Below the pieces are notes generated by a model. It was not told where the DNA came from. It worked only from the letters and a program-made list of their open reading frames with translations, and did no database searches. Position numbers and translations under genes: made by a program. From contig WBVU01000005.1 of assembly GCA_009192285.1 (NCBI GenBank), forward strand, positions 3,304,731-3,368,730: a stretch of 64,000 nt of DNA, given 5' to 3'. This DNA comes from Morchella semilibera (Eukaryota; Ascomycota; Pezizomycetes; Pezizales; Morchellaceae). This document shows, piece by piece, positions 2,366-60,951 of the stretch (its first letter is position 1; each line of letters begins with the position of its first letter).

Positions 2366-5300
2366 TTAAGAGTATCTCCTACGCCTGCCATATCCACCCT
2401 CAGACCCACTGCCATAATATTCGTCACCGCTGCCTTCCTCTTCCTCTTCTTCTTCCTCGCCGCGTTCACGTCTACGGCGGGCCTCTTTCTCACGCTTTTT
2501 CATTTCCTTTCTCTCTCTTTTCTCCCTCTTTCTTCTCTCCTCCTCATCCTCCTCCTCCTCCTCCTCCTCTTCCTCGTGCCTCTTATAACGATGTTTCTAC
2601 CAACGATTTTCAGTATAAGCTTCACCCCCTCTCTCATCTCTAGAATCGTATCTATATACCTTTTCAGAGTGCTCATATTCTCTACCGTGGTGGCTGTGGG
2701 AATGATGTTCACGGGTTTCGTAGGACCCTTCACCATATGTGGAGGTCTCGTAGGTCGTTTGCGAACTGTAAGAAACTTGATGACTGCTATATCCACCCGT
2801 GTTAGCGCCATAGCCACCTCCGTATGCAGCTTGCCCCTGATATCCGCCCCCATATCCATGACCATAGCCCTCTTGTCCGTAATGACCCTCTCCATGCGGC
2901 CTGCCAGTACCAAAAGAATCAACTCGTCCATACCCAGATGTTCCGCCTTCTACATAACCCCCTTGGGACACATATCCTTTGTGCCCATGATTCCCACCAT
3001 GGCTATAGGATTCATTCTCTCCTGGTGCGCCGTAGTACCCGCGACCTTCTCCGGAACTGTATGTGTCGCTCTGAAGATAAGCAGTGTCACGAGGCACGGG
3101 TCGCTCGTAACTGGATTCTTGATAGGTCCCTACCCCACCACTCTGGTTGTACGACCGTTGGTAGCCTGATTCTCGCCCCCCATATCCACCTTCAAATCCC
3201 CTTTCCCTGACCTCCTCAAAACCACTCGAGCGGCTTTCCCCGCCGCCACCGCCTCCTAGCTGTTGCGACAGATACCCAGACACAGCTGCACCGGCAATTC
3301 CTCCAAGTAAGCCACCAAAGCCTGAGCCTCCTCCACCACCCTGGTTGCCAGTAAATGCCTGCTCAAGGGCTGTGCCCATGGCAGCTCCCATATCGCTCCC
3401 AACGCCGAACTCACCACCCGAGTTCTTGGGTTTGACTCTGTGGATTGGCGCACCGCACCCATGGCCGGAATCGTGCTGGCCTTCTTTATGATTTTTGCCT
3501 TGTTCAACACCTTCGCGTGAAAGGCAGTATCTGAAAAATTGCCTCTCGTCCTCGCTCTTTTCCCCCCACCATTGCTGGACAACACTAAACATCCGTTGCC
3601 TACCCTCAATACCGTCACGACCATCACCTCCATGGGCGAAAGCAGGGTGGTGAAACACACCAACAATATCGTCGAGTAGCTGGTCGATACTCATGTATTC
3701 GTCATCCCAGGCCTCCATGAGCTTTGGGACGACATACTTGATAACCTCGCTAGCAACCTTTCCCGCAGGTTCGTTCAGGCTGGGTATTTATTAGTAACCA
3801 GGTTACATGTAAGGAAGTGGAAATACCAACAGATTTGTGAAGTGATCCTTCGATAGCATACTGTGTGTAGGGTTGCTAGAATAATGGTCGTGAAATACAA
3901 CAAATTGAAGGTTCTTACTACTTCCAATGACTTCGCCAGACCCTGTAGAGAGTTCAAGTTTTACTTGTTGAAGAATTGGCATAAGAAATGGTGCGATCAG
4001 CGAGAACACAAAAATGCTGACAGCCTCAGAAAGCTTCTCGACGATTGTAGTAAGGCCTGGGATTGACTCCAATGCCTTATTGATGGCCATCATGATCTTG
4101 TCGTGCCATTCAAGGAATGGGTATATATCTGTTCTAAGTTGTTCGCTGTTGGTGATTCCCCAAGGCTCACCACGCTGAGTTGCCTCGGCTTGCAATTTCG
4201 ACTTCTCCTCGAGCTCTGTAGCCTGGGAGTCAAGATCTGCAGCACCACGAATTGGGAGTTTTTTGAGGAGGTCGCTAATGATAGAGTGTTGGCCAACCTG
4301 CTCATAGGCCGCATTGTTGATTGTGCCCTCAAGCTGCTCAATTTCGGATTGAGTCGCTTTGTCGGAGAACTCACCCAAGACTGAGTGAAGACTGTTGAAA
4401 ATTAGCTTTGAGCTTAACCAAATACATAGGGTCAAAATACAAATCGACGCCACCAAAGGTCCCGGTCACAAGCGGAAAGATTCTTCTTCCATTCACATCA
4501 AGCTCTGTATAAGAACCGGAGTGAGGGAAAACTCCCCTCTCCCCCATTTCAATCAGGGCAAGCTCGATATAATTCGAGTGCGCAGAGAAATCTATATATT
4601 CACGGTTAGACTTCTGTCACAGCATAAATAATTGTTGCTTACCTTCAAGACAATGCAAACCAGTCCCCATCAATCTCAAAGCCTCATACTTATCGGCCTT
4701 ATTTCCGCTCCTTCCGTAGTTCCTACCGAGTTCAATACTACGTCTCAAAAGATCACGTACAAGCCCGGCTGATCCGAATACTGTTAGTTCTGTGTTTTCC
4801 CTGCTTCTTTAAGAAGTAAGGATAGAGGTCTTACCACTGGTGTACATCCTGTCTCCATTACTGAGTTCGCGGATATTCTCATTAGCAATGTAATTTTTCA
4901 TTCCAGTCTGGGGATCTATGGCAAGCTCGATTCCCTCGTCAACTGGACAGCGGAGCCGGTGGTCATAGTCACGAGCATCCAAGTTATCGGCATAGTCCTT
5001 TGGGTTGTCTAGTAGGGCCTATTAACATCGTTTCTACAGAGGAGGCTAGCCGATTTATGTACCAATATGTTCCTCTGGACGATAACAGCCCAGTCTTTCC
5101 TCTGTAACTTCAAAGGCGCCAGTTCCGTACCCAAACGTCATAAACGAAAGCATCCAAAGCTAGAATACGTTAACCTCCCAATCACCACATCAATCGATTC
5201 TCTAACAGATCTTACAATAAGCCGAATAGTAGGCGCTTGGACGTATTTAAGCGCACCAACATCAATGGCCTGGGAGTAGTCCCTTAACCAGTTTCCGAAA

Positions 5301-5524
5301 TAGATACGCTTGATAGTCATGGAGTCGAACTTTTTTCCACCGAGACTTTGCGCCATCATAAGTTGAAGCAGAGTATCTTCGATATCCCCATGGCGCCAGT
5401 TCATTCCTTCAATCTTGGAGATGGAAGCAATGTTACCAGCGCCGAAAGCATAGGCTGGGAGGGCTGCATAACAAAGAATCAAGAGTATGGGGAGAAATAG
5501 AGGCGGCAGAGATGAGCCCGCCAT
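2366..5524 (-). CDS. het-c: HET-C heterokaryon incompatibility protein
   Basis: Eight exons give an open frame of 929 residues: 5216-5524, 5063-5159, 4835-5008, 4643-4789, 4441-4591, 3831-4391, 2660-3779 and 2366-2596. The protein opens with a hydrophobic signal segment ending in AYAFGAGNIASISKIEG. The HET-C hallmarks follow: NWRHGDIEDTL, YFGNWLRDYSQAIDVG, RPEEHIDNPKDYADN, LRLMGTGLHCLEDFSAHSN, PLVTGTFGG, THSMLSKDHF and NEPAGKVASE. The C-terminal third is Gly/Tyr/Ser-rich, as in other HET-C proteins, and then changes into an acidic/basic tail of poly-Glu and Arg-rich sequence. In Neurospora this plasma-membrane or secreted protein controls vegetative incompatibility through allele-specific complexes. 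Two splice choices are uncertain. The third intron could end at 4781 instead of 4790, and the sixth intron (3780-3830) needs a weak GTTGGT donor. The last intron (2597-2659, 63 nt) is inferred because it removes an in-frame stop and restores a long acidic reading frame. Confidence 0.95.
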
Positions 5525-7734
5525 ATTTGGAGATAGATGTGGTTCTGCTAATCTGTTTACGTGCGTTAACGGATATTCGCCAGTTGAAGGCGATGGGGAT
5601 AACGAGTAATGTGGAGAAAAAATGGGGTGAAGAGGGGCAGCCGATAGTTAATACGGCTCAGAGGTATGATGGGGTGAGCTAGCTACATGCATGTTCCTAA
5701 CGATGGAGGGGCACCAATGCCAAGAGGAGGGGCGCCGAAAATCTGAGCTGCGTGTTACGCAAGCACAATGGATTACACCTGACCAACCTACAGGAATACT
5801 CATCACTTGGCCGGTAACAGTGAGACACCTCTATTGGCTTTTAAAGATGGGCTCCCCTTGTTAGAGCACGTATAACCGTGGCACAAGAATGTCTCCAATG
5901 CGTTCGAAGCTGAATTCGATAGGATACTAGTTCCAAAGAGATGTGTTCCTTGCTTTATTCCTTTCACATGACCCATGAGGTGCTTATGTTCACAAAGTTT
6001 CAAAGATAGAAGATTCTCAAAATATTATTTTAGAGGGTTTGACAAGGCTAAGAACCTGCCAAGCCTCATGCTGTCCTGACCAAGAAATACCTACATATAA
6101 ATTAACAGACCCACTTTTTCCTCTTTTCCTTTCCGCGCGCTTCAGCTGTCAAATTCTTACTCCAAGGCTTGGAGTCAAGTAATACAACTGATCTAAACAA
6201 TGTAGGAGTTCGGATAAGTAAAGAAAATAACTATAGCTATAGAGGTAGATAGGTTGAGTTGGATGATAAGTTTTTGGTTCCCCCATAACGATCATTTTCC
6301 CTTGATACTCATCTTTGCGGTAATTATTAGAAGGCGAAAGGGGAACTCATGCAGCCAAGCCTGCGCCACCATTGAAGCTGACATGTGTAGAATCTTCGGT
6401 CCTCAGCATACAGCTGCAATGTCTACCTCTTGTTCGTCAATAACCTCATATACAAGGTTCCGTATTTAGTGAGTGAACGGATCCTGTCAACACCCAACTT
6501 AGTTCACACATGATACCAGAGCCTTGTACTCGACTGATATTGCATACCACACAAAAATTCCAAGGGTGTATGCAATAGCGGCCCAGCCCAAAAACGTCAG
6601 GACACTACGAGTATATGGTGGAATATTGGCTGTACGAATCCCCGGGGTTGCACTGAAAGACTCTAATGGAAGGATCCCTCTGACAAAGGCTGATAAACAA
6701 AAGTATAAACCATTCCGGTCTCTTCACACGACGCTATCAGTTCGCTCTGGGCTCATCAAATCTCCTGGCAGGGTATATCGGTAAGACTACCAAGTTTACT
6801 ATACTGGATATCTCCAGTAGGGCCCCTCCCGAACGTTTTTCAATTATCATCTAATCTACATCATCTAATCATTACCCACCGAGTGATATTCAGTGACACA
6901 GAACGACACGTGCACATTGTGCGAGATCCATAACTACACGTAAGTTGTATCCACCCCACTAGAACTCACTTCCATCATAACCTTCAGGTTGCATGCATCA
7001 ATCGATCGACCAATCAATATATCATCATTTATCCGATTGCAACTTCGAGTGCATACCGCTGCCGATTAGTCAATCATTCTCAGAGCATATGGTGGGCATA
7101 CTAGTACTAGGGTTTCCTGGACGTAGGAACTCTTTTCCTAGCAAGATGCTGGTACCCAGGCCAGTAGTAATCTCATTCTGGCAGTTAAATACCGTATAAC
7201 TCTCTAATCGAGGTTCGTTGGCCCCGAATATCTAGGCGCCCACGATATCATTGCGGCCAAGCACCCCACAGGGAGCGGCCACCCAATATGTCACGCCGTC
7301 ACGCCGCACGATCCCCAGGGTACAGCTTACAGGGTCCCGACTTATTTGTCACGCGCAACAGGTACAAGGTACACCCTGGAGTCCAACGCCAACACGTGTC
7401 TAGCCTCTCGTAAAGGAACTGCCGGAAGAATTAAGGCGGCTGAAGTTTCTCCGCTAGGACCGGGAGCCTAGCTAGGTTCCTGATCTACTAGGTATTTGGA
7501 GACGAGTCGAGTTGGCGAGGGAGTAGAGTTAGGGAGCGATGATCGATCCCTGCCGGACGTAAAGTTGCCTCCATATAGATGACATCATACCATACAAAGC
7601 CGAGAGGGTCTTCGGCGTCACAATGACATTTTTTTGTTTGTTTGCCCATGCTTTTTAATTTCAAGCATAGAAATGTTTTTTAAAACTCCTGCTTTTTTGC
7701 GGCGGGGGATTTGATATTTAAAGAGACCTTCGAA
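5525..7734. other. Intergenic region between het-c and the SDR gene
   Basis: This is the shared upstream region of two divergent genes. Apart from one unexplained minus-strand frame at 6499-6723 (listed separately) I see no coding signal. The part just upstream of the SDR gene is locally richer in G and C around 7200-7560. Confidence 0.5.
6499..6723 (-). CDS. Possible terminal exon or gene remnant with one membrane segment
   Basis: A 74-codon minus-strand frame runs to a TAA without a credible ATG. It encodes polar sequence followed by a clear hydrophobic stretch, VLTFLGWAAIAYTLGIFVWY, and a short tail ending SCVN. The composition looks more like a real membrane exon than a random frame. I could not find matching upstream exons, so it may be the last exon of a decayed membrane-protein gene. 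A further open minus-strand stretch near 6290-6400 may belong to the same remnant. I do not recognise the family. Confidence 0.2.
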   Translation of the reverse strand, partial: RDRNGLYFCLSAFVRGILPLESFSATPGIRTANIPPYTRSVLTFLGWAAIAYTLGIFVWYAISVEYKALVSCVN

Positions 7735-33149: not shown

Positions 33150-33589
33150 GTGTGAGCTGACCACCAAGTAATTTTTAATTTCATGTCTGTATTGTTGAGG
33201 AGTTGGGGGATATATAGGGAATAGTGAAAATCTATATAATGAGATCTTCAGTAATTATAATCATGTCTTAACACAGATATTCTTATCAGTTAGTACTGGT
33301 TACGTTGTAGGTACGTACTTAAGCGGCAAAACGAGTGATTCGAGCTCGATGGTCAATACTGACCCCCTATAGTAGAGGGATTAAATTTGCATGGAAGATC
33401 CATTATTTGATAAGGGGATCCGGGATCTGTTAGTAAAGCCACACAAAACCTGCTTCTTCTGGGGGGGGGGGGGTCAGCATTTACTGACAGACTAAGGGAT
33501 AGTGGGTTTTGGAGCAACGATGGGATTGTAATACTAAGTAGCATGATTTGTTGAAGCATTAATTATAACTATAGATATGGCTAGCTTAC

Positions 33590-36110: not shown

Positions 36111-39100
36111 ATGCCCAGCAAATTCAGGGTCCGTGAGCGGCTCAGAGTTAGGTTGGGCAAGAGCCCTAGTCCTGTTCCAACCAGCCAGACCCCTCTGCCA
36201 GCAGGGCCACAGATTTCAGCATCAAACTCGTAAGTACATATACACTTGTATCTATATCATATTACATGTATACATGTATATACGTACATTTTGGGGGCAT
36301 TAAATGCCTAAGTCATGTGTGAAGTACATGTAAGTGGGTAATTGATTAAGTTTACGGGCTGATAAATCTTAGTAACTCAACAGTCAACAATCTCCCTGCA
36401 CCAAGCACTCCTCCACCTCCCCCGAGTTCGCAGCCTGTGCCAACAGAAAACCTCGCTTTCGTCCAGGCTCTAAAAAAACACATTCAAGACCTCTCACCTG
36501 AAGAGCGACAAGCATTCGGTAATTGCAGTAATATATCACCAGATACCCTCCTAGCCAGTGTTAAGAATTATGATGACATCCACAGCAACTCGAGCTATTC
36601 CCGTAAATGTATGTCCAGAATCGAGGGGTTTTTGACCGCTGTGGATGGCTATCTGAAACCCTTATCGATAATGATCGGGCATCATCAGGATATTTCTTCT
36701 CTTGTTGTAGGAGGTGCACAGCTTATCGTTCAGCTCGGACTGAAATTCGCGAATTTTTTCAGTAGGTTGACAGAGATGATGGAAAATTTGTCCAGTCATT
36801 TAAATTACCTATCTCGGTATGCCAAGTGCTTTGATCAATCCAAGGATGTACAAGACGCACTTTCCGCTGCATATGGAGATCTACTCAAGTTTTTTACAAC
36901 TGCGAGGAGGGTTTTCGTAGATAGTAAGGGGAACTATAGTCGCTGGGTATCGTTTCGGGTCTTTTTGACGATTACGTGGGAACCGTTCGAGGAAAATTTC
37001 AATTCCTTGCTCTCGGGGTTCCAGAATCATGTTGATGTTGTGATTCGGACAGCTTCTGTCGATGAATATGAACGGTTACGCTCTGAAAGATTATTGGATA
37101 CTGAGGAGAAAGAGAATGAAAACAGGAACAAATTGCTGTTATGGCTCTCACAGCTGGATTTCGATGAAGATCATAATCGGATATTCAAGAAAAGGCATCA
37201 GAATACTGGGAATTGGCTCGTTGACTCTCCTGAGTTCAAAAAATGGGAAAATTCTAAAAGTTCTTCCCTATTATGGTGCTATGGAAACCGTAAGACACCC
37301 CCGTATTTGGGTAGTTCACGGACTTTAAAAGCTGACCTTGTAAAAGCTGGTGTTGGAAAGTCTGTTTTAGCGTTAGTAGCTAGCTCCACTCTTCATCTGA
37401 TATTAGGGGAGAACCGCTAATAGTTATTTCCTGATAGGTCTCTTGTTTTAGAAACGATCTCGACCAAATATTCCTTGGATAGCCAGACCGGTATAGCGTT
37501 TGTATATTTCAACTTCCAGGATCAGGGAACTCAAAAATCCATCAGAATTATTTCCACGATGATCAAACAGCTTGCTCGCCAAAAGAAGAACCTACCAAGC
37601 GATTTAAAAACACTTTTATAAAACGTATCATCGGGACGCCAAATTTCCAACCGAAGAGAAAATTGAAGCTCAATTTTTGGATATTTCTAAAACATTCAAC
37701 CAAGTATTCCTTATCATGGATGCACTGGATGAATTCGAGGGCCGGAAGGAGTTTCTTTCTATGATCTCAAGATTTACTCAAGACCCTTCTGTTATTTGCA
37801 AGATTTTTGTCACGAGCCGCAGGGAGGTAGACATTGAGGACGCTTTCAATCGATGCGGATTCAGCATAATCCAAGTTGAGGTCAAAAAGGTTGACGCCGA
37901 TATCGCCACTTACGTCCGTGATGAGGTCGAGAGGCGCACCAAAGAAATGAGAAGAACCATCATAGACAAAGAACTTCAAGCAAAAATCACCAATACTCTA
38001 ACATCTAGGTCAGAGGGAATGTAGGTTTTTTTCAATCACTACTGCTCAGTTAATTAAGTCCTGGGAAGTCCTGGCGGCAACCACCTCACAAGACTTCTCG
38101 GGACTTAGGTATATAAATAGGGGTTTGGATTTGACGATGTATAGGTTTTTATGGGTCAAATATCAACTAGATTTCATCTATGATCAACCTTCCGCCAGAC
38201 ATATTGCCAAGGCCCTAGGTACACTCCCCGCCGACATGAACGCGACATACGCTCAGATTTTAAGGAGAATCAATAAACAGGTCCCGGCCAAACGCGAGAT
38301 TGCCCAACACGTTTTGATGTGGGTACTTTGCGCTAAAAGGCCGCTTACCCTCAATGAACTGAGCATTGCTATTTCTCTCCAACCGGAATCGGAAAAGCAC
38401 GAAGACTTGGAAATGTATGACGCAGAATCACTCCTCGAAACATGTTGTAACCTGATCACTTTTGATAATGGCATTTTTCGACCTTTTCATTATACGGTCC
38501 AAGAATTTCTCGTTTCTACTAAGCCAGATTTGGTTGATAGCACCGATATGGCCTTGTTTCAAAGATATCAAGTTACTGTAAATGACCACGCAAGGCTGGC
38601 AGAGGCTTGCGTTCGATATTTTCTACTATCGGATGTGGCCAGTGCCCAGCCACGTATACTACATCCCTTCAAAGTTATATACCCATTTTCAGCATATGCA
38701 GCGGCATATTGGCATCACCACGTCAGAGATCTTACTGAGTTACCAAAATCTTTGGCTCAGGCTATCGACACGATTTTCGACGATTCCCACAGAAATAGCC
38801 TTCTATGGGCATATCGGACAGCTGCGGAGGAACTTAGGGGAGCGGAGTCTATCGACCCGTTGAATTATTGCTTATCCCTTGATATCCTCCACCTTTTTCA
38901 AAGATCTCACCAGTTCGACATATCAACTACCGACATGAAGAAATACGAGGACGCTTTGCATCATGCCGCGTATGGTGGATCAAAGTCAAACATTAAGTCT
39001 CTCCTGGAAATGGGATTCCCGGTAAATTGTTTGGATAACAGGAGAAAGACGCCATTGTATTTCGCTGCCATGGCTGGGCACACGGAGGCATCGATCCTAC

Positions 39101-41081
39101 TTATAGAAAATGGAGCAGATGTAAATATTGAGTGTGGGGGAGATTGCGGTAATGCTTTGAATGTGGCCGCCTTCAAAGGCTATGCGGGAGTAGTAGGCTT
39201 GCTTCTCGACAGAGAGGCCGATATCAACGCCCGTGGGAAATACGGCAATGCCTTGTGTACGGCCGCCTTCGGTGGTTCTGCGGAGGTGGTAGGCTTGCTT
39301 CTCGACAGAGGGGCCGACGTCAACGCTCGGGGCGGACACTACGGCAATGCATTGCAGGCAGCTGCGAGCAGTGAGAACGGCTTGGAGATAGTACGGGTTC
39401 TCTTAGATCGGGGGGCCGATGTCAACGCTCAGGGTGGAGTGTGCAGCAACGCATTGCAGGCAGCTGCGTTTAATGAGAAAGGCTTGGAGATGGTACAGAT
39501 TCTCTTGGATCGAGGGGCCGACGCCAGCGCTCAGGGTGGATTGCACGGCAACGCATTGCAGGCAGCCGCGAATAATGAGAACGCCGGCTTGGAGATAGTA
39601 CGGATTTTCTTGGATCGAGGGGCCGACGTCAACGCTCGGGGTGGACGCTACGGCAACGCATTGCAGGCAGCTGCGTTGAATGAGAAAGGCTTGGAGATAC
39701 TACAGCTTCTCTTAGATCGAGGGGCCGATGTCAGCGCCCGGGGTGGGGTCTACGGCGGCGCATTACAGGCAGCCGCAAGAAATAAGAAAGGCTTGGAGAT
39801 AGTACGGGTTCTCCTGGATCGAGGAGCCGACGTCAACGCCAAGGATGGAGGCTCCGGCAACGCATTGCAGGGAGCTGCGTATGGTGGTCAGTTGGAAATG
39901 GTACAGATTCTCTTGGATCGAGGGGCCAACGTCAACGCCCAGGGCGGAGAGAACGGCAACGCACTGCAGGCAGCTGCGCGTAATACAAAGAATCCGGAGA
40001 TAGTAAAGATTCTCTTGGATCAAGGGGCCGACATCAACGCTCAGGGTGGGTATTGCGGCAACGCATTGCAGGCAGCTGCGTATAATAAGGAAGGCTTGGA
40101 GATAGTACGGGTTCTCTTGGATCGAGGAGCCGATATCAACGCTCAGGGTGGGATATACGGCAGCGCATTGCAGGCAGCTGCGTATAATAAGGAAGGCTTG
40201 GAGATAGTACGGGTTCTCTTAGATCGAGGAGCCGATATCAGCGCTCAGGGTGGGCATTACGGCAACGCATTGCAGGCAGCTGCGTTTAGTGAGGCAGGCT
40301 TGGAGATAGTACGGGTTCTCTTGGATCGGGGGGCTGATGTCAACGCTCAGGGTGGGTATTACGGCAACGCATTGCAGGCAGCCGCGGATAATAAGGAAGG
40401 CTTTGAGATAGTACGGATTCTCTTGGATCGAGGGCCGACGCCAAGGCCCAGGGTGGAACCTTCGGCAACGCATTGCAGGCAGCTGCGTTTAATGAGAAAG
40501 GCTTGGAGATGGCACGGATTCTTTTGGATCGAGGGGCCGATGTCAACGCCCAGGGTGGAGGCTACGGCAACGCATTACAGGCAGCTGCATATAACGGGAA
40601 CTTGGAGATAATACGGGTTCTCTTGGATCGGGGGGCTGATGTCAACGCTCAGGGTGGGTATTACGGCAACGCATTGCAGGCAGCTGCGGATAGTGAGAAG
40701 GGCTTGGAAGTTGTACAGATTCTTTTGGATAGAGAGGCCGATATCAACGCTCAGGGTGGGTATTATGGCAACGCATTGCAGGCAGCCGCGAATAATGAGA
40801 ACGGCTTGGAGATAGTACGGATTTTCTTGGATCGAGGGGCCGACGTCAACGCTCAGGGCGGACGCCACGGCAACGCATTGCAGGCAGCTGCGTGCAATGC
40901 AAAAGGCTTCGAGACAGCACAGATTCTTTTGGATCGAGGGGCCGACGTCAATGCTCAGGGTAGGGTTTTCAAGAATGCTTTATACGCAGCAAAAGAGTAC
41001 TCCCATATAAGAACCTACGAGTTACTATCAAGAACGCTCGAGAGACGTAGAGCCGGGGATGAGATAGAGGCGAATTCATAA
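36111..41081 (+). CDS. STAND/NLR protein: DUF7708-like N-terminus, NACHT, ankyrin repeats (two apparent frameshifts)
   Basis: Exons 36111-36229, 36373-37289, 37347-37371, 37438-about 38020 and 38145-41081 carry one continuous NLR architecture. The N-terminal region (about residues 70-300) resembles the DUF7708 domain common on fungal NLRs. The NACHT P-loop GNPGVGKS is at about residues 344-351, created only after removing the intron 37290-37346. Walker B is seen in VFLIMDALDEFE. A winged-helix segment (HVLMWVLCAKRPLTLNELSI) precedes about 20 ankyrin repeats, mostly of the 34-residue form with LLDRGADVNAQGG. Two reading-frame breaks are seen. Near 37619 a TAA is followed by a shift before YHRDAKFPTEEK. 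Near 40433 the run normally written GGGG has only three G. Either the gene is a recent pseudogene or these are sequence errors. Function by family: recognition of non-self or partner proteins triggering a defence or death response. Confidence 0.88.
39349..40972 (+). repeat. Tandem ankyrin repeats with near-identical DNA (about 102-bp unit)
   Basis: Sixteen successive units of about 102 bp each begin GCATTGCAGGCAGCTGCG and include GATCGAGGGGCCGACGTCAAC. Identity between units remains high, including at third codon positions. Units differ mainly at a few fixed positions of each ankyrin repeat, for example the residues after LQAAA and after AQGG. This pattern of high internal conservation with clustered variable sites fits ongoing unequal exchange between units. 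Confidence 0.85.
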
Positions 41082-53551: not shown

Positions 53552-56500
53552 CTATTTTTTCTTGCCCTCCATCGCCTGCAAAACGAGCCCCTCTAATTTT
53601 TTATCACCCCTCTTTTTGAAAAATTGTAGTGCCGTCTCTTGATCTCTGTTTACCAGAGAGATATCTATCCCGTTTTGAAGAAGGAGTTCCGCAATTTTTT
53701 CTTTGTCCTCGCCCTTGTTTCTAGTTGCGGAGTGGAGCGCTGAACCGTATATACTGCATTTATTAACGTCCGCGCCATTCTGCAGAATCAACTTGACAAA
53801 ACTGGCATCTGCAAATTGAGCTGCAAGCATCAAAGCCGTGGCCCTGTTTTCGTCTGCCCTGTTGATGTCTGCTCCTGCCTTCAGGAGGGCTTCTGCCTGC
53901 GGAATGTTCCCACTCGCGGCGGCTACAAGTAATGCCGTGCGGCCAAATGCGCCTGGCGCCTCGATATCTGCTTTATTCTGAAGAAGTATTTCTATTACCT
54001 CTACCCGGCCCTCTTTTTTCGGTAATGATGCCCGATGTAGTGCGCTATCCCCGTTGTTCATGGCCTTATGAATGTCCGCGCCATTCTTCACCAAGAAGCT
54101 TGTCATACTGGCATCTGCGAGTTCAGCTGCAAGTGTCAAAGCCGTGGCCCCGTTTTTGTCTGCCTTGTTGATGTCTGCTCCTGCCTTCAGGAGGGCTTCT
54201 GCCTGCGGAATGTTCCCACTCGCGGCGGCTACAAGTAATGCCGTGCGACCATATTCGCCTTGCGCCTCGATATCTCCTTTATTCTGAAGAAGTAATTCTA
54301 TTACCTCTACCCGGCCCTCTTTTTCCGAAAATGATGCCCGATGTAGTGCCCTATCCCCGTTGTTCATGGCCTTATGAATGTCCGCGCCATTCTTCACCAA
54401 GAAGCTTGTCATACTGGCATCTGCGAGTTCAGCTGCAAGTATCAAAGCCGTGGACCCAGTTTCGTCTGCCTTGTTGATGTCTGCTCCTGCCTTCAGGAGG
54501 GCTTCCGCCTGCGGAATGTTCCCACTCCCGACGGCTACAAGTAATGCCGTGCGGCCAAATTGGCCTGGCGCCTCGATATCGGCTTTGTTCTGAAGAAGCA
54601 TTTCTATTACCTCTACCCGGCCCTCTTTTTTCGATAATGATGCCATATGTAGTGCCCTACCCCCGACGTTCATGGCCTTATGAATGTCCGCGCCATTCTT
54701 CACCAAGAAGCTTGCCATACTGGCATCTGCGTGTTCAGCTGCAAGTATCAAAGCCGTTGCCCCGTTTTCGTCTGGCTTGTTGACATCTGCTCCAGCGCTC
54801 AGAAGAGCTCCTACAAAAGATAGATCTCCGTTCGTGACAGCATTATGCAGTTCTGTGCGACCATATGCACCTGTATCTGCCGGATCGATATTTAGTCCGT
54901 TCTCAACGAGTGCTTTAATAGTAGATGAACTTCCACATTCAACTGCCTTCTTTAGTACTATCTTCCCATGCACCCCGTCTATATTCGGCCTTAGATTTCT
55001 GAGGGAGAATAAATGTCGGATCACATCATTATACCCTCGTTCGACCGCTCTCACCAATGCTTTCTCGCGGTCAAATCTACTTCTGAGGAGTAATTTGATT
55101 GTCTCCATTTGACCACTTGATACAGCCGCCTCAAGAGCAGTTTTTCCTAGCGGGGAGCCTGAGCTGCTGCTGTCTATATCTGCACCAGCATTTATGAGCA
55201 TTGTGATGATTGCCCCGTCGCCGCCGCTTGCTGCCGCTTGTAATGATGATATTTCAGGCAAACTGGCCGGTTCGTTTTTGAAAATCTTTCCGTAACTCAA
55301 AAGGTACTCCACGATTTTGGTGTGACATCCCTCGGCCGCTGCCTGTAATGCTGTTCGTCCCGAAAATTTTGCAGGTGCGGTCATGACGTATTCGATATCG
55401 TTCTGTGTGCGGTGCGTGATCATATGGGTATCTTTGGTCGCGAGCACATTTTGTGGCCCTGTTGATTCGAGGGAAGGTCAGCCAAGTCTTTGGGATCATT
55501 TGTAAAATCCTTTTCTCCCTACCTTTTGTTTCCTCTGTATCAAGGGCTTGTGGTCCTATAGCCCTAGCTTGGGTTTTAGCATCCTCGAGATCGCCGCAAA
55601 GAAACCGGAGGACATTAAGGTGCCCGGCTCCTGCAGCTGCCTGTAGTGCTGTGAGGCCAAAATAGTCCGCCGGTGCTTCATCACGTTTCGCCCCACTCTC
55701 CATGAGTGTCTTAACAATATCTAGATGACCGGCACCTGCTGCTGCCTGCAATGCTGTCCTACCATAGTGTAGCGCAGGTTCTCCGTTGACCGCGGCACCG
55801 GCCCCCAAAAGATCCCTAACGAGCCCCATATCACCCACTTCTGCTGCCATCTGGATCGGTGACCGATATTTTCTGATTAATAAGAGGTCGATTGGAAAAT
55901 GAGGATCTTTGATTTCTTCGATGGTGGGGCCGAGGTCGGCAGTGACCATTGCCGCCGCTCTTAGGTGTTGTTGGACAGAGAGGTACCTTCTAAGTTCATC
56001 GCAAAATAGAACAGATTCAATGTCTCGGAGAGCATTGATTAATACCCTGGAAATTAGATGACACTCTTCCCGCTCGCTCTCTAACCAACCAATGACCGTG
56101 TTCTCCCACAAAAACCTTGCAGTTAATCTAAAATCGTTCAACACCCCCCTGCCCAACGCCTCTAGAACCTTTATCTTGAAATCTTGATTTTCATGCATCT
56201 CCCCGCCACCACAGGAATGTATCGTATCGCATATCAATCTCAGAATTGTATCGTGGCCCAGCACAGCACAGCTTGCGTAGGTTAGGCATAAGGTTACAAG
56301 TCCTAAAGCTCGCTCCTCGGATTCCTCTGATCGAAGTAATTGGCAGTACGAGTGAACCATTTCCCAGGTTCTAAGGCGCTCGGGGGGCTGCTGGATATGT
56401 CTGGTACCTTTTGCCAATATGCGAATTTGCTTCAGGAGACGCCGCGTTATAATACTAGTGACGCTCACCGGGACATACTCTGATCCGGCATTTATATGTA

Positions 56501-59090
56501 GCCAGGAATCCTTCTCAAGACAGTCTTCCCACTTCTTATCTGCAGCTGCCTCTTTTGCATCATTTATAACCTCGAGAGAAGTCTCATATGGATAAGGAAG
56601 CTTTCCGGCGGAACCAAACGCGGAAATAATAGAGAAGTACGCATCCTCGGTTGTTCCTAGGCCATGTACAGTATATGTCTGGACGAGGTGTTCGAGGTTC
56701 GAGTTATGAAGACGGAATTTTTTGGCTTTGGTGTCATTGAGCATCCTGGGAGCTCTGGTTCTTGTATCCTTGTTGAGAGCTGTCGTGTTGCCCCCAATGT
56801 CTTGTACTATTTCTGCAAGCCTGAAAATGAATAAGCTATAGATCTCCTGAGAACATAAAGTGATCGAATCACCGGCTTCGACATCTATGTAGAGATACCC
56901 GGGTGTATGGTCATCGTCGCTAGAAGGAGCCCTTGTGTATCCGTAATATCGGCTTTCTTTATTATACAATTTCTCTAACTTGGGTTTTCTTCCGCGAGGT
57001 ACCCAGATACTGTAGTGAGTGCTTGCTAATTGCGAGGCAGGTGCTAGGATTCTAATCGACCGGAGTCGTGGTGTCTTATCCCTTGCCCTTTGTCTATCGG
57101 CCTGGACGATTGAAGATGTCCAAAGGCACAGAACAGCTTCCAATTCACTCTTTCCAACGGTCCAGGCGCCAACATTCTGGTTCTCGTTAATTGTTCTGCG
57201 GAAAGTCAGGTTGATCATTTCGGATTTTGTGTCGCCCTTAAATGAAGCTTCGATTGGTATGGCCCAGGTGAATTCCATTTCAGTCTTCATGTCTTTATGC
57301 ACAGTCATGTTGTCAAAGACTTCGTTCATGGTTTCCTCAATCAGACTATGTAGAGCTTCTGCCTTCTTTCTGCCACCGAACTCCCAGTCAAGTGATAGTC
57401 TTGCTAGGCGGGCTCGAGTTTTCATCACCGCGGCAATGTTGTCATCGTCGTTCCCAGCGGGAGCTCGTTGTTCGATATCCTCCTTTTCACCTGCTGAATT
57501 ATCTACTGGCACTGCGCTTACGTGATCGTTTCCTTTTGATAATGTTTGAATTAAACCGGAAGCCCCATTTAGACCTGCGGATCCTTCAAGTGGAACCGGT
57601 GACGGTTGGGTAGCATGTGGACTAGGATCGGGATTAGACTGTGTTCCTCCACTCGTGCCCCCACCCATACCCGTACTGATCTCCCAAGACTGACAGCCTT
57701 TTAGGTGTTTTGCCAACCAATCCAGCTCATAACCTTCTATCTCATCAGGATCGCCCATATCGTTACGGCCCTCCCGCTGTAGACGAGTACAACATCGCAG
57801 GACAGTCATTATCAGAACCGCACCTAGTTGGGCTATGGTAACTGATGGATGCATTGCGCGTAATCCGACAAATTGAGCGACGAAGCCGAAGAAAGCAGCG
57901 CAGATGGCAATGATAACAAGAAGCGGTCTACCTTTTTCTCCACTTCCTAAGCTCTTTACTACCTTGTGTGAAGTTAGAACCCGGTTTTCAGGAAAGTTTA
58001 CCCCGGTTTGCCGTGCGAATGATCCAAACCGCTGATCGCCGACAGTTTGCCCTCCTTGTTGCAACCATATAACAGATTTTGACTCGCCCTTTTTCGTTGG
58101 TTCCCAAACCTCTTCATCCGTGCTCGTCTCCACGGCCTGGGCGCACAAAAACATCCCAATGACTAGGCTGATCGTTCCTGTCAACAAGACAGGAAAGCCG
58201 TAACCTGGAACACTGGCTTTGTTTTTGTCCAATCGTAACCGGTACTGAGAAATCGCGGCATACACAAGAACTCCGGCTTGTAGAAAGAACCCAATACCCG
58301 CAAAAAGCATGCGGATCTGAGCACTGAGAGGCTTAATGCTGACATTCAGAGAAAGGTTTGGAGGGTTTTGTCGGTATAGAAAATCGTCGATGTCTTCCAT
58401 ATTATTACCCATTGTCTGTTGTACATCGCGTGGTGACTTTGAATCTCCCTTCTTTCGATAGAGATCCAGCCTAATTGCTTCATGGAAGAGATAAACTCCT
58501 TCAGAATTCTTTATCATTGGCGGTTTGTTCTCCGGGCCTTCAATATCCCCAGGCCGTTTGGCATCGTCCAGTCTTTCAACATCTCCAGACCCAACATGAA
58601 CCAACTGCAGAAGGACTGGAGACCCAAGAACCCTAGAAACGCCTTCTCCACCCCATAGCTCACAAACATCTGCTGAGGTTGATGACATCAGCTCCGCTTC
58701 GACAACCCCTCGACTTTCCTTTGCCCTCCCGATTAGGGACCAGAGAACTGGCCTACCAGCAACCCGGATTGCGGCGACCATCGCCGAGATAATTCCTAGT
58801 GGGGCAAATGCGAAAAGTAGACTATCGATCCAGCTCAATGATTCGTTCAGATATTGAGTTGTCACCTGCTCGCCTAGAAGAGTGAGCAGTGGAGCCAAGT
58901 CGGTGGCAAGATTATTGACGAAGGTATCCCATCCCTCAGGAGGGGCACAGTCAACAGTGCACGCGGCCTTGGCAGAGCCGACAAAAAATGATAATAAAAG
59001 ACCAACTTTGAGGGCTGTATCTAGGAGGATTCCCGCATTGCCCTGGAGTCGAGTGTGGGCGCGCATAGTGCTAGGCGAATATTTCTGCAT
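53552..59090 (-). CDS. Large multi-pass membrane protein with C-terminal ankyrin repeats
   Basis: Two exons (55523-59090 and 53552-55458) joined over a 64-nt intron with a GCTGAC branch point encode 1,824 residues. The N-terminus has a hydrophobic segment (LLDTALKVGLLLSFFVGSA) followed by CTVDCAPPEGWDTFV and a second one, LLFAFAPLGIISAMVAAIRV. Further membrane segments occur near MLFAGIGFFLQAGVLVYAAI, LLTGTISLVIGMFL and LLVIIAICAAFFGFVAQFVG. The block VVEAELMSSTSADVCELWGG is typical of a large uncharacterised fungal family. A long mid-region of about 600 residues has no motif I recognise. The last 750 residues are ankyrin repeats, first as GRTALQAAAGAGHLDIVKTL and then as a long array containing a 306-bp tandem triplication. 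It resembles NLR-linked recognition proteins in its repeats but shows no P-loop. The function is unknown. Confidence 0.9.
53820..54790 (-). repeat. 306-bp tandem triplication within the ankyrin array
   Basis: Landmark sequence TTCAGGAGGGCTTCTGCCTG recurs at 53880 and 54186, with one change at 54492, exactly 306 bases apart. Each unit encodes about 102 residues, three ankyrin repeats including LVKNGADIHKAMNNGD and LLKAGADINKAD. The copies differ by only scattered changes, so the expansion is recent. A diverged fourth unit starts near 54798. Confidence 0.85.
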
Positions 59091-60951
59091 TCGCGCCGAC
59101 TAAAATCATATCAGTTCTGTCGAGGTAGGACCAAACTTCCCTTGATGGCATAATTACCTCGGACACGGTGAGGATAAATTGTTCCTGTCTCGGTCCCCAA
59201 CGAAGTAGTAGGTAGTCTAATTAAACCAAGAGTTTACTAGTTAATTAGTGCATCCTTCAAAATATAGATAAATAGAGGATCGAAGTTTACACTTGTATAT
59301 CGGGCGGGTTTGGCGACGAAGAATTTCCTAGAGTGCCCCGTAGGCGTGGGAATGGGGTTGGATTTTCAAGGATGAATATTATTGGGATCAAAAACTGGAA
59401 GTTTGGCGGCCGGTTAATGGAGATTAGGAACTGAAAGTGGATTGTACCCAGAAGATGTATAATGCTAACTTATTTGACTTGGGGTGGGAATAACAAATTT
59501 TTACTGAGAGAATTCAAGTGTTGCCTTCAATCACAAAGCTGCACAATGCAGCGTCTGAGACATGCGCGCGTCTAGTGGATAACAACTGATGTTACACATG
59601 GTGGTGGCCTCGTAAAGCAACCAAGCAGACGGCTTAGATTTGACATTTGAATCGGACGGTTCTTTTGAGAAATGAGAGTTACTGACGGTACCAAAGGCAG
59701 GCTTTACAGCTGAGAGCTAAAACCTTGACGTGTCTACCGTTCCCCCGCAAGCTCCTGCTCAGCGATTCTACATACAGGTTTCCAAAGACAGATCGACTCA
59801 CAGGGAACCGGGGTGATTCTATTTCGATTTCTATTGCTCGTCGTGTCCAATCTCTCTGCAAGGAATAGAACAGCCTCTATCTCATATATAGACGGTCACT
59901 CGGAGTTACAACGACACCTAAACCCTTTCTAGTAACCATGATATAAAAATCGCACAGAATTGAAAACAGTGCACAAACTGTCATGCATGCCGGAAGCTAC
60001 AACTCGGACTTACTCGGCGTTAGATTCATCACGCTACCATAAAGGGTTTAAAGTGTCTCGAGTTGTAATTTGGATTCTGCAACTTCCGTTAGCTATCGGC
60101 GACTCAGGCAGTGAAGTTCCCTAGAGTACAACAAGCGGGCGTGCCAAATAAGAAATTTGTCTTGTTGCGCACAAGTGATGCGGGGCAGGCATGGGCCAAC
60201 CAGAGACAGCCTTGATTTCTTACATCAATTTAAATCATTGGTTGCTGCGGTTATCTCTTATACATATAACGCAAAAATGTATGATTGAGCAGCTTGAGTC
60301 GAGATTGCGCTAAAAGTGAATCATCCCTACTGTCTCACAACGAGATTACGTACAGTATGCAGAATTGCCAAGATCCCAAAAACTTCATACTGAGTGGCAA
60401 ATCATCTGGATAATATCAAGGGATCCGGGGTATTGGGCTCCGGCATATCTGGTTGCGGCTGTAATCACAGGGGGTCACTCGATCTTGGCGATCACCTGAA
60501 TGCGATAGTTATTGGAGGAGCTAGCTGGATGCATGGCTTGGAGACGTGGGGAATTGGTGGGGTTTGAAAAATTCACGGCCTTAGCAGGAATCCCACGATT
60601 ATTCGAACAGAAGCTGCATATAGGACGTATGCGGGGGCTGATACTCGTCTCATGCTCATATTTCTGAGACATTCAATATAATATAGCACGCGCACTGGAG
60701 CAATAGTTGACCGATAAGAAATTGAGATTTGGGCGCTCTACAAAAATTGATCTGGCAATAGAAACTTTACCCGAGGAAATAAAAATCAAAACACCAGTCT
60801 TGTTCATATCACATTCACCATTCAGAAAAAAAAAACGAAGAGAAAAAAAAAACAAAAAAAAAACAGAAAAAAACAGAAAAATGACGAAGCCTTATATCCC
60901 GATAATCCCAGCTACAGATCCACACGATCGATAGATAAACATGCATGCAAT
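59091..60951. other. Intergenic region between the membrane ankyrin gene and the dynamin-like gene
   Basis: The left end is the promoter region of the membrane ankyrin gene and the right end is the 3' flank of the dynamin-like gene. An A-rich stretch lies at 60825-60880. No gene is supported. Confidence 0.5.

Follow-up and report, generated by a model that had tools for sequence, protein, structure and literature searches.

The 64,000-nt window of Morchella semilibera analyzed here (contig WBVU01000005.1, positions 3,304,731 to 3,368,730, forward strand; coordinates below are window positions) contains, at 36111-41081 on the + strand, a gene that probably encodes an intact fungal NOD-like receptor (NLR) of the STAND type (signal transduction ATPases with numerous domains). 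It is composed of a DUF7708-like N-terminal domain, a NACHT module, a winged helix, and an ankyrin array that would act as the sensor, and the two frame breaks that interrupt it in the assembly are most likely one-base assembly errors. This reading is based on the domains, the predicted gene structure, the homogenization of the repeat units, the variable positions shared with two paralogs, and the predicted ankyrin fold, all of which were computed here, while ligand sensing, oligomerization, and output would follow the pattern of known fungal NLRs. By that analogy, the ankyrin solenoid would serve as the sensor, offering a stable scaffold in many copies with few positions differing between units; ligand binding would free the NACHT module for nucleotide binding and oligomerization, and the clustered N-terminal domains could then trigger a response such as cell death. 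The receptor belongs to a known kind of fungal NLR with a known repeat pattern, of which it is an ordinary though well-resolved example.

Predicted from the sequence alone, the gene has five exons separated by four GT-AG introns, and these introns explain every frame change other than the two breaks. Exon 1 (36111-36229) supplies the start codon and a short basic N-terminus in translation and ends at a GTAAGT donor at 36230; intron 1 (36230-36372) leads into exon 2 (36373-37289), which encodes the DUF7708-like domain and the first part of the NACHT module. Exon 3 is a 25-nt microexon (37347-37371) lying between intron 2 (37290-37346, 57 nt) and intron 3 (37372-37437, 66 nt), and ordinary predicted splicing over it restores the canonical Walker A motif GNPGVGKSVLA. 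The remainder of the NACHT domain falls in exon 4 (37438-38020), as indicated by an NPHP3_N match and by alignment to an open paralog on contig C2, and after intron 4 (38021-38144, 124 nt; introns 2 to 4 were placed by their splice-site ends) exon 5 (38145-41081) encodes the winged helix, degenerate and similar ankyrin units, a C-terminal cap, and the stop codon.

The Pfam matches follow this layout. DUF7708 (PF24809) matched exon 2 with 25.5 bits, just above the Pfam cut-off of 25, and scored 27.1 bits in the genome-wide search. NPHP3_N matched exons 2 and 4 in three pieces, of which the one in exon 2 (23.3 bits) lies below the cut-off of 24.8 and the two in exon 4 (26.2 and 39.4 bits) lie above it. 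Exon 5 matched the GPIID_WHD winged-helix domain (38278-38520; 36.7 bits, residues 45-125 of the piece from 38146) and Ank families. The full NLR plan named in the original prediction for this DNA (DUF7708-like domain, NACHT, repeat array) is borne out by these matches, and a single gene joins an N-terminal domain, a NACHT module, and C-terminal superstructure-forming repeats, the combination that marks fungal NLRs of the STAND type. Because of the two breaks, the exons do not form a single open frame in the assembly; known NLRs with frame breaks stay filed as NLR genes or as pseudogenes. A search of the whole window against Rfam gave no match.

The array of 16 similar ankyrin units spans 39343-40970, with two degenerate units before it and a degenerate cap after it. 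The count agrees with the approximately 16 units predicted, whereas the description of these units as almost identical in DNA was overstated: mean pairwise identity is 0.811 in DNA (range 0.686-0.971 over 120 pairs) and 0.720 in protein, i.e., 81% and 72%. Mean protein identity to the consensus is 0.814, which leaves the whole array below the 85% level of internal conservation. The best run of eight units (units 8-15, with unit 11 counted only to its break) reaches 0.854 to consensus and 0.775 pairwise, and the best run of three units 0.912 and 0.833; these values come from our own measure and not from the program of Dyrka and others. Greater uniformity is seen in two paralogs from this genome, one on contig C20 at about 3,651,000 (20 units, 0.830 pairwise) and one on C2 at about 3,513,000 (12 units, 0.863), both counted without the last divergent unit of the array (21 and 13 units with it).

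When the three arrays were compared together, mean DNA identity within an array was 0.821 for the window gene, 0.897 for C20, and 0.885 for C2, and between arrays it was 0.591-0.659, the most alike pair of units reaching 0.74. Non-adjacent units of the window array have exact tracts of up to 88 nt in common, and none of 500 column shuffles gave a tract longer than 56 nt. The difference between within-gene and between-gene identity, together with these long shared tracts, indicates that units have been exchanged or homogenized within each gene, and the same comparison gave no sign of recent unit exchange between the window, C20, and C2 genes. Such concerted evolution of units is characteristic of NLRs with highly internally conserved repeats. 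Damage by repeat-induced point mutation was considered for the array and rejected, as the dinucleotide indices (TpA/ApT 0.68, (CpA+TpG)/(ApC+GpT) 1.56), read in the usual way, indicate none.

Differences between units are concentrated at fixed repeat positions, as predicted: the columns of highest entropy are 9, 33, and 34, which in an ankyrin unit fall where the inner helix ends and at the β-hairpin tip. Columns picked from the C20 and C2 arrays alone rank 1, 2, 3, and 11 by entropy in the window array. Columns 9 and 33 correspond to positions 13 and 3 of designed ankyrin repeat proteins (DARPins). A set of six positions, those randomized in DARPins, was fixed beforehand. In the window array this set holds 35% of the amino-acid differences in 6 of 34 columns, and it was equaled by 410 of 20,000 random column sets there, by 102 of 20,000 in C20, and by 1,051 of 20,000 in C2, where the test is weak.

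Single-sequence modeling of 39331-40434 produced 22 helices in ankyrin register, with a mean predicted local distance difference test (pLDDT) score of 76.4. The closest solved relatives are DARPins and ankyrins, both by sequence search and by Foldseek, and the template modeling (TM) scores on the query of 0.26-0.65 over the best 50 Foldseek rows show that the overall curvature is poorly matched. On such a solenoid the variable positions would, by analogy with known ankyrin binders, line the concave binding face. DARPins come closest by sequence among solved structures and rank among the best matches by fold, and the natural variable positions overlap the designed randomized ones; unlike in DARPins, hairpin position 4 is variable too in the natural units, which have extra loop residues. 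Three arrays, in the window gene and its two paralogs, that were homogenized separately yet vary at shared positions form a natural counterpart of designed binder libraries. The N-terminal domain was modeled poorly from its single sequence (mean pLDDT 42.6), and a PDB sequence search with it returned nothing convincing (best E 0.34).

Once the introns are removed, two breaks are left, and both had been predicted. Break 1 lies in the NACHT exon at 37613-37619, where short T and A runs adjoin, and was located by frame analysis and by comparison with the C2 paralog, whose open frame passes the site without a shift. Break 2 lies in a short G run of unit 11 (40363-40463), which measures 101 nt, compared with 99, 102, or 105 nt in the 15 other units. 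An intron scan at break 1 (donors 37500-37618, introns of at most 160 nt) gave one frame-keeping GT-AG candidate, a 157-nt intron at 37502-37658, which was rejected as the cause of the break because it would remove NACHT sequence kept by the C2 paralog.

The assembly (56.76 Mb in 23 contigs) contains duplicated contig ends from which its errors can be gauged: collinear matches show that the left end of contig C21, over approximately 1.5 Mb, is also present in C22, and that C12 is paired with C13. The comparison covered ten duplicated segment pairs, of which seven entered because both copies gave matches, one was taken at a position independent of gene content, and two were selected because an ankyrin match is missing in one copy. 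The first seven show no substitution and a single indel over 26,640 bases, and the pair taken independently of gene content matches throughout its 1,500 bases, so the eight clean pairs together hold one indel and no substitution in 28,140 bases. Of the two ankyrin pairs, one shows 6 indels and no substitution over 1,805 columns and the other 26 indels and 2 substitutions over 4,074 columns; together they total 32 indels, each of 1-2 bases, and 2 substitutions over 5,879 columns. Thirty of these indels are single-base, and 31 fall in runs of 2-6 equal bases. In each of these two pairs one copy is open and the other broken: the open copies carry frames of 510 and 592 aa, and the longest frames of the broken copies on the same strand are 192 and 380 aa. 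Since real divergence should give more substitutions than indels, the large excess of indels points to patches of assembly error, and we infer that the differences in both ankyrin pairs arose in this way. The offsets between paired contigs also jump by larger amounts, which shows that there are longer length differences besides the short indels.

Among the ankyrin matches listed (the best 150 of 157, with 97 of 511 candidates scored, a selection that favors unbroken arrays), 2 of 10 duplicated C21/C22 loci have a match missing in one copy, and the C12/C13 locus appears in both. Given this proportion and the indel patches, assembly error by itself should leave a number of ankyrin genes broken. 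The original prediction had offered recent silencing or homopolymer errors as the source of the breaks, and with two ankyrin genes broken in only one contig-end copy, the latter is favored and the former less so.

Several observations weigh against this assignment. The stretches searched in and beside the receptor gene have no duplicate in the genome, so that the duplicated contig ends bear on its breaks only indirectly. The clean rate (1 in 28 kb) makes two breaks in approximately 4.6 kb of coding sequence unlikely, and the rate in the bad pairs (approximately 1 in 184) predicts far more than two; the error rate at the receptor locus would have to lie between the two, unless one of the breaks is real. 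In addition, among the matches listed, the receptor gene is the only truly frame-split locus of 51 multi-segment ankyrin loci (out of 71 ankyrin loci, duplicate copies counted). Three loci had been flagged as frame-split, namely the receptor gene, one C21 gene, and its C22 copy; the apparent split at C21:1496117-1498426 was rejected, as the locus has a single open frame, and the C22 copy of that gene is identical over 4,044 bases.

The isolation of the receptor gene among those 51 loci would fit a recently silenced allele, in which one or both breaks are real mutations and only a truncated protein is made. Inactivated NLRs do occur: passages of a 2025 study of Podospora describe a het-d allele with read-supported stop codons as well as NWD pseudogenes (PMC12222747). 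The same study, in the part concerning another het-d allele, reports a one-base deletion in a repeat that its authors judged to be a misassembly in a small homopolymer (PMC12222747). We regard silencing as rather unlikely, for the assembly makes such breaks artificially and the ratio of nonsynonymous to synonymous differences (pN/pS) outside the pre-fixed positions is 0.50, like that of the open C20 paralog (0.50; C2, 0.27). With this level of constraint, and with predicted coding pieces that contain no stop codon apart from the frame breaks, a real loss would have to be young. Since duplicated contigs show that an assembly can itself introduce frame breaks into fungal NLR repeats, pseudogenes counted in such assemblies should be confirmed with reads.

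Whether the array is selected for new binding surfaces is a separate matter. At the pre-fixed positions pN/pS is 0.93 in the window array, 3.30 in C20, and 1.41 in C2, and at positions chosen from the paralogs it is 1.22 in the window array, against 0.45 in the other columns. The ratios at the variable positions of the window array are thus higher than elsewhere (0.93 and 1.22, against 0.50 and 0.45), and an excess of amino-acid change there, with selection for it, is suggestive only. Window-array ratios of only about 1, as well as a whole array that misses the 85% level, would also fit an ordinary ankyrin scaffold homogenized by chance recombination, with no selection for new binding surfaces. 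This alternative appears unlikely: the variable columns are common to two separately homogenized arrays, the ratios at the pre-fixed positions rise above 1 in both paralogs (in C2 with the weak share test given above), and Dyrka and others, in passages on Podospora ankyrin repeats, describe the same pattern, with the concave face under positive selection, using the 85% conservation level (PMC4986451). The original proposal of an NLR with a diversifying repeat array is supported as to the kind of gene by the domains, homogenization, long tracts, and shared variable positions; its selective component stays suggestive. Programmed frameshifting, in which ribosomes shift at both breaks and make the full protein, is barely credible: both breaks do lie at short runs, but the C2 paralog crosses the first site in one frame, the second break is found in only 1 of 16 units, and two separate shifts would be required.

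The Walker A microexon of the receptor gene recurs across the genome. A genome search gave 67 matches, of which the best 30 loci were examined, and 25 of these, in which the match reaches the end of the preceding exon, were tested. A 25-nt Walker A exon between AG and GT is present in 20 of the 25, or in 18 of 23 distinct NLR-type loci when two duplicated-contig copies are left out, the window gene being included in both counts. The other loci with this exon are L005-L007, L009-L011, L015-L017, L019-L021, L023-L026, L028, L030, and L031. The exceptions are L008 (25 nt, altered loop), L013 (intronless), L022 (first intron only), L027 (one base longer), and L029 (an extra base). In L027 and L029 the extra base lies in short runs of the nucleotide-binding loop, a break of the kind that the window gene shows. 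Skipping the 25-nt exon in the window gene would shift the frame and bring a stop within five codons, just ahead of the nucleotide-binding loop. It is conceivable, if very doubtful, that the exon is a splicing switch setting the amount of active receptor across the NLR repertoire. An exon of this size could easily be missed by gene predictors, and intact NLRs would then seem to lack their nucleotide-binding loop. A Walker A microexon in fungal NLRs was not found in the open-access literature searched, in which the microexon passages concern codon-sized truffle exons.

Besides DARPins, three known fungal systems resemble the receptor. Podospora anserina Pa_3_8560 (PNP_UDP/NACHT/ANK), as described in passages of PMC4986451, likewise combines a NACHT domain with internally similar tandem ankyrin units, and genes of its type vary at positions in the inner helix and β-hairpin region. 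The window gene differs in its N-terminus, which is DUF7708-like and not PNP_UDP, and in its internal conservation, since the whole array stays below 85% and only an eight-unit run reaches it. The Podospora HNWD genes (het-d, het-e, het-r) share the NACHT domain, the exchange of repeats within a locus, and one-base repeat breaks, according to parts of PMC12222747, but have WD40 repeats, a HET effector domain, and a known ligand gene, het-c. The Tuber melanosporum nank family, in the accounts that cite it (PMC4986451, PMC3689799, PMC10197012), is a NACHT-ankyrin family with microexons; these are codon-sized, alternatively spliced, and located in the sensor part, whereas the window gene has a 25-nt Walker A exon and an intronless array. 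Effector domains and NLR repertoires are covered in sections of PMC9815663 and PMC12258605, and the term DUF7708 was not found in the open-access literature searched.

Other features of the window and its surroundings include a second ankyrin gene on the - strand (53552-59100) with no detected NACHT domain, in which a 306-bp unit is repeated 3.4 times with 91% matches; judged by eye, a GT-AG intron accounts for its frame change near 55500, and the gene looks open. A Het-C (PF07217) gene lies on the - strand at about 2600-5650, approximately 30 kb from the NLR, and the one frame change checked in it is consistent with a GT-AG intron that has a TACTAAT branch site. At 33352-33519 there is a dispersed element of approximately 150 bp with at least 42 further genomic matches at 72-89% identity (duplicated contigs counted); it contains a long G run, and its ends look inverted by eye, resembling a miniature inverted-repeat transposable element. 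A further DUF7708 match followed by a 1097-aa ankyrin frame occurs at C21:3388683-3394009, starting approximately 43 kb downstream of the receptor gene, and the two genes possibly form a small NLR cluster.

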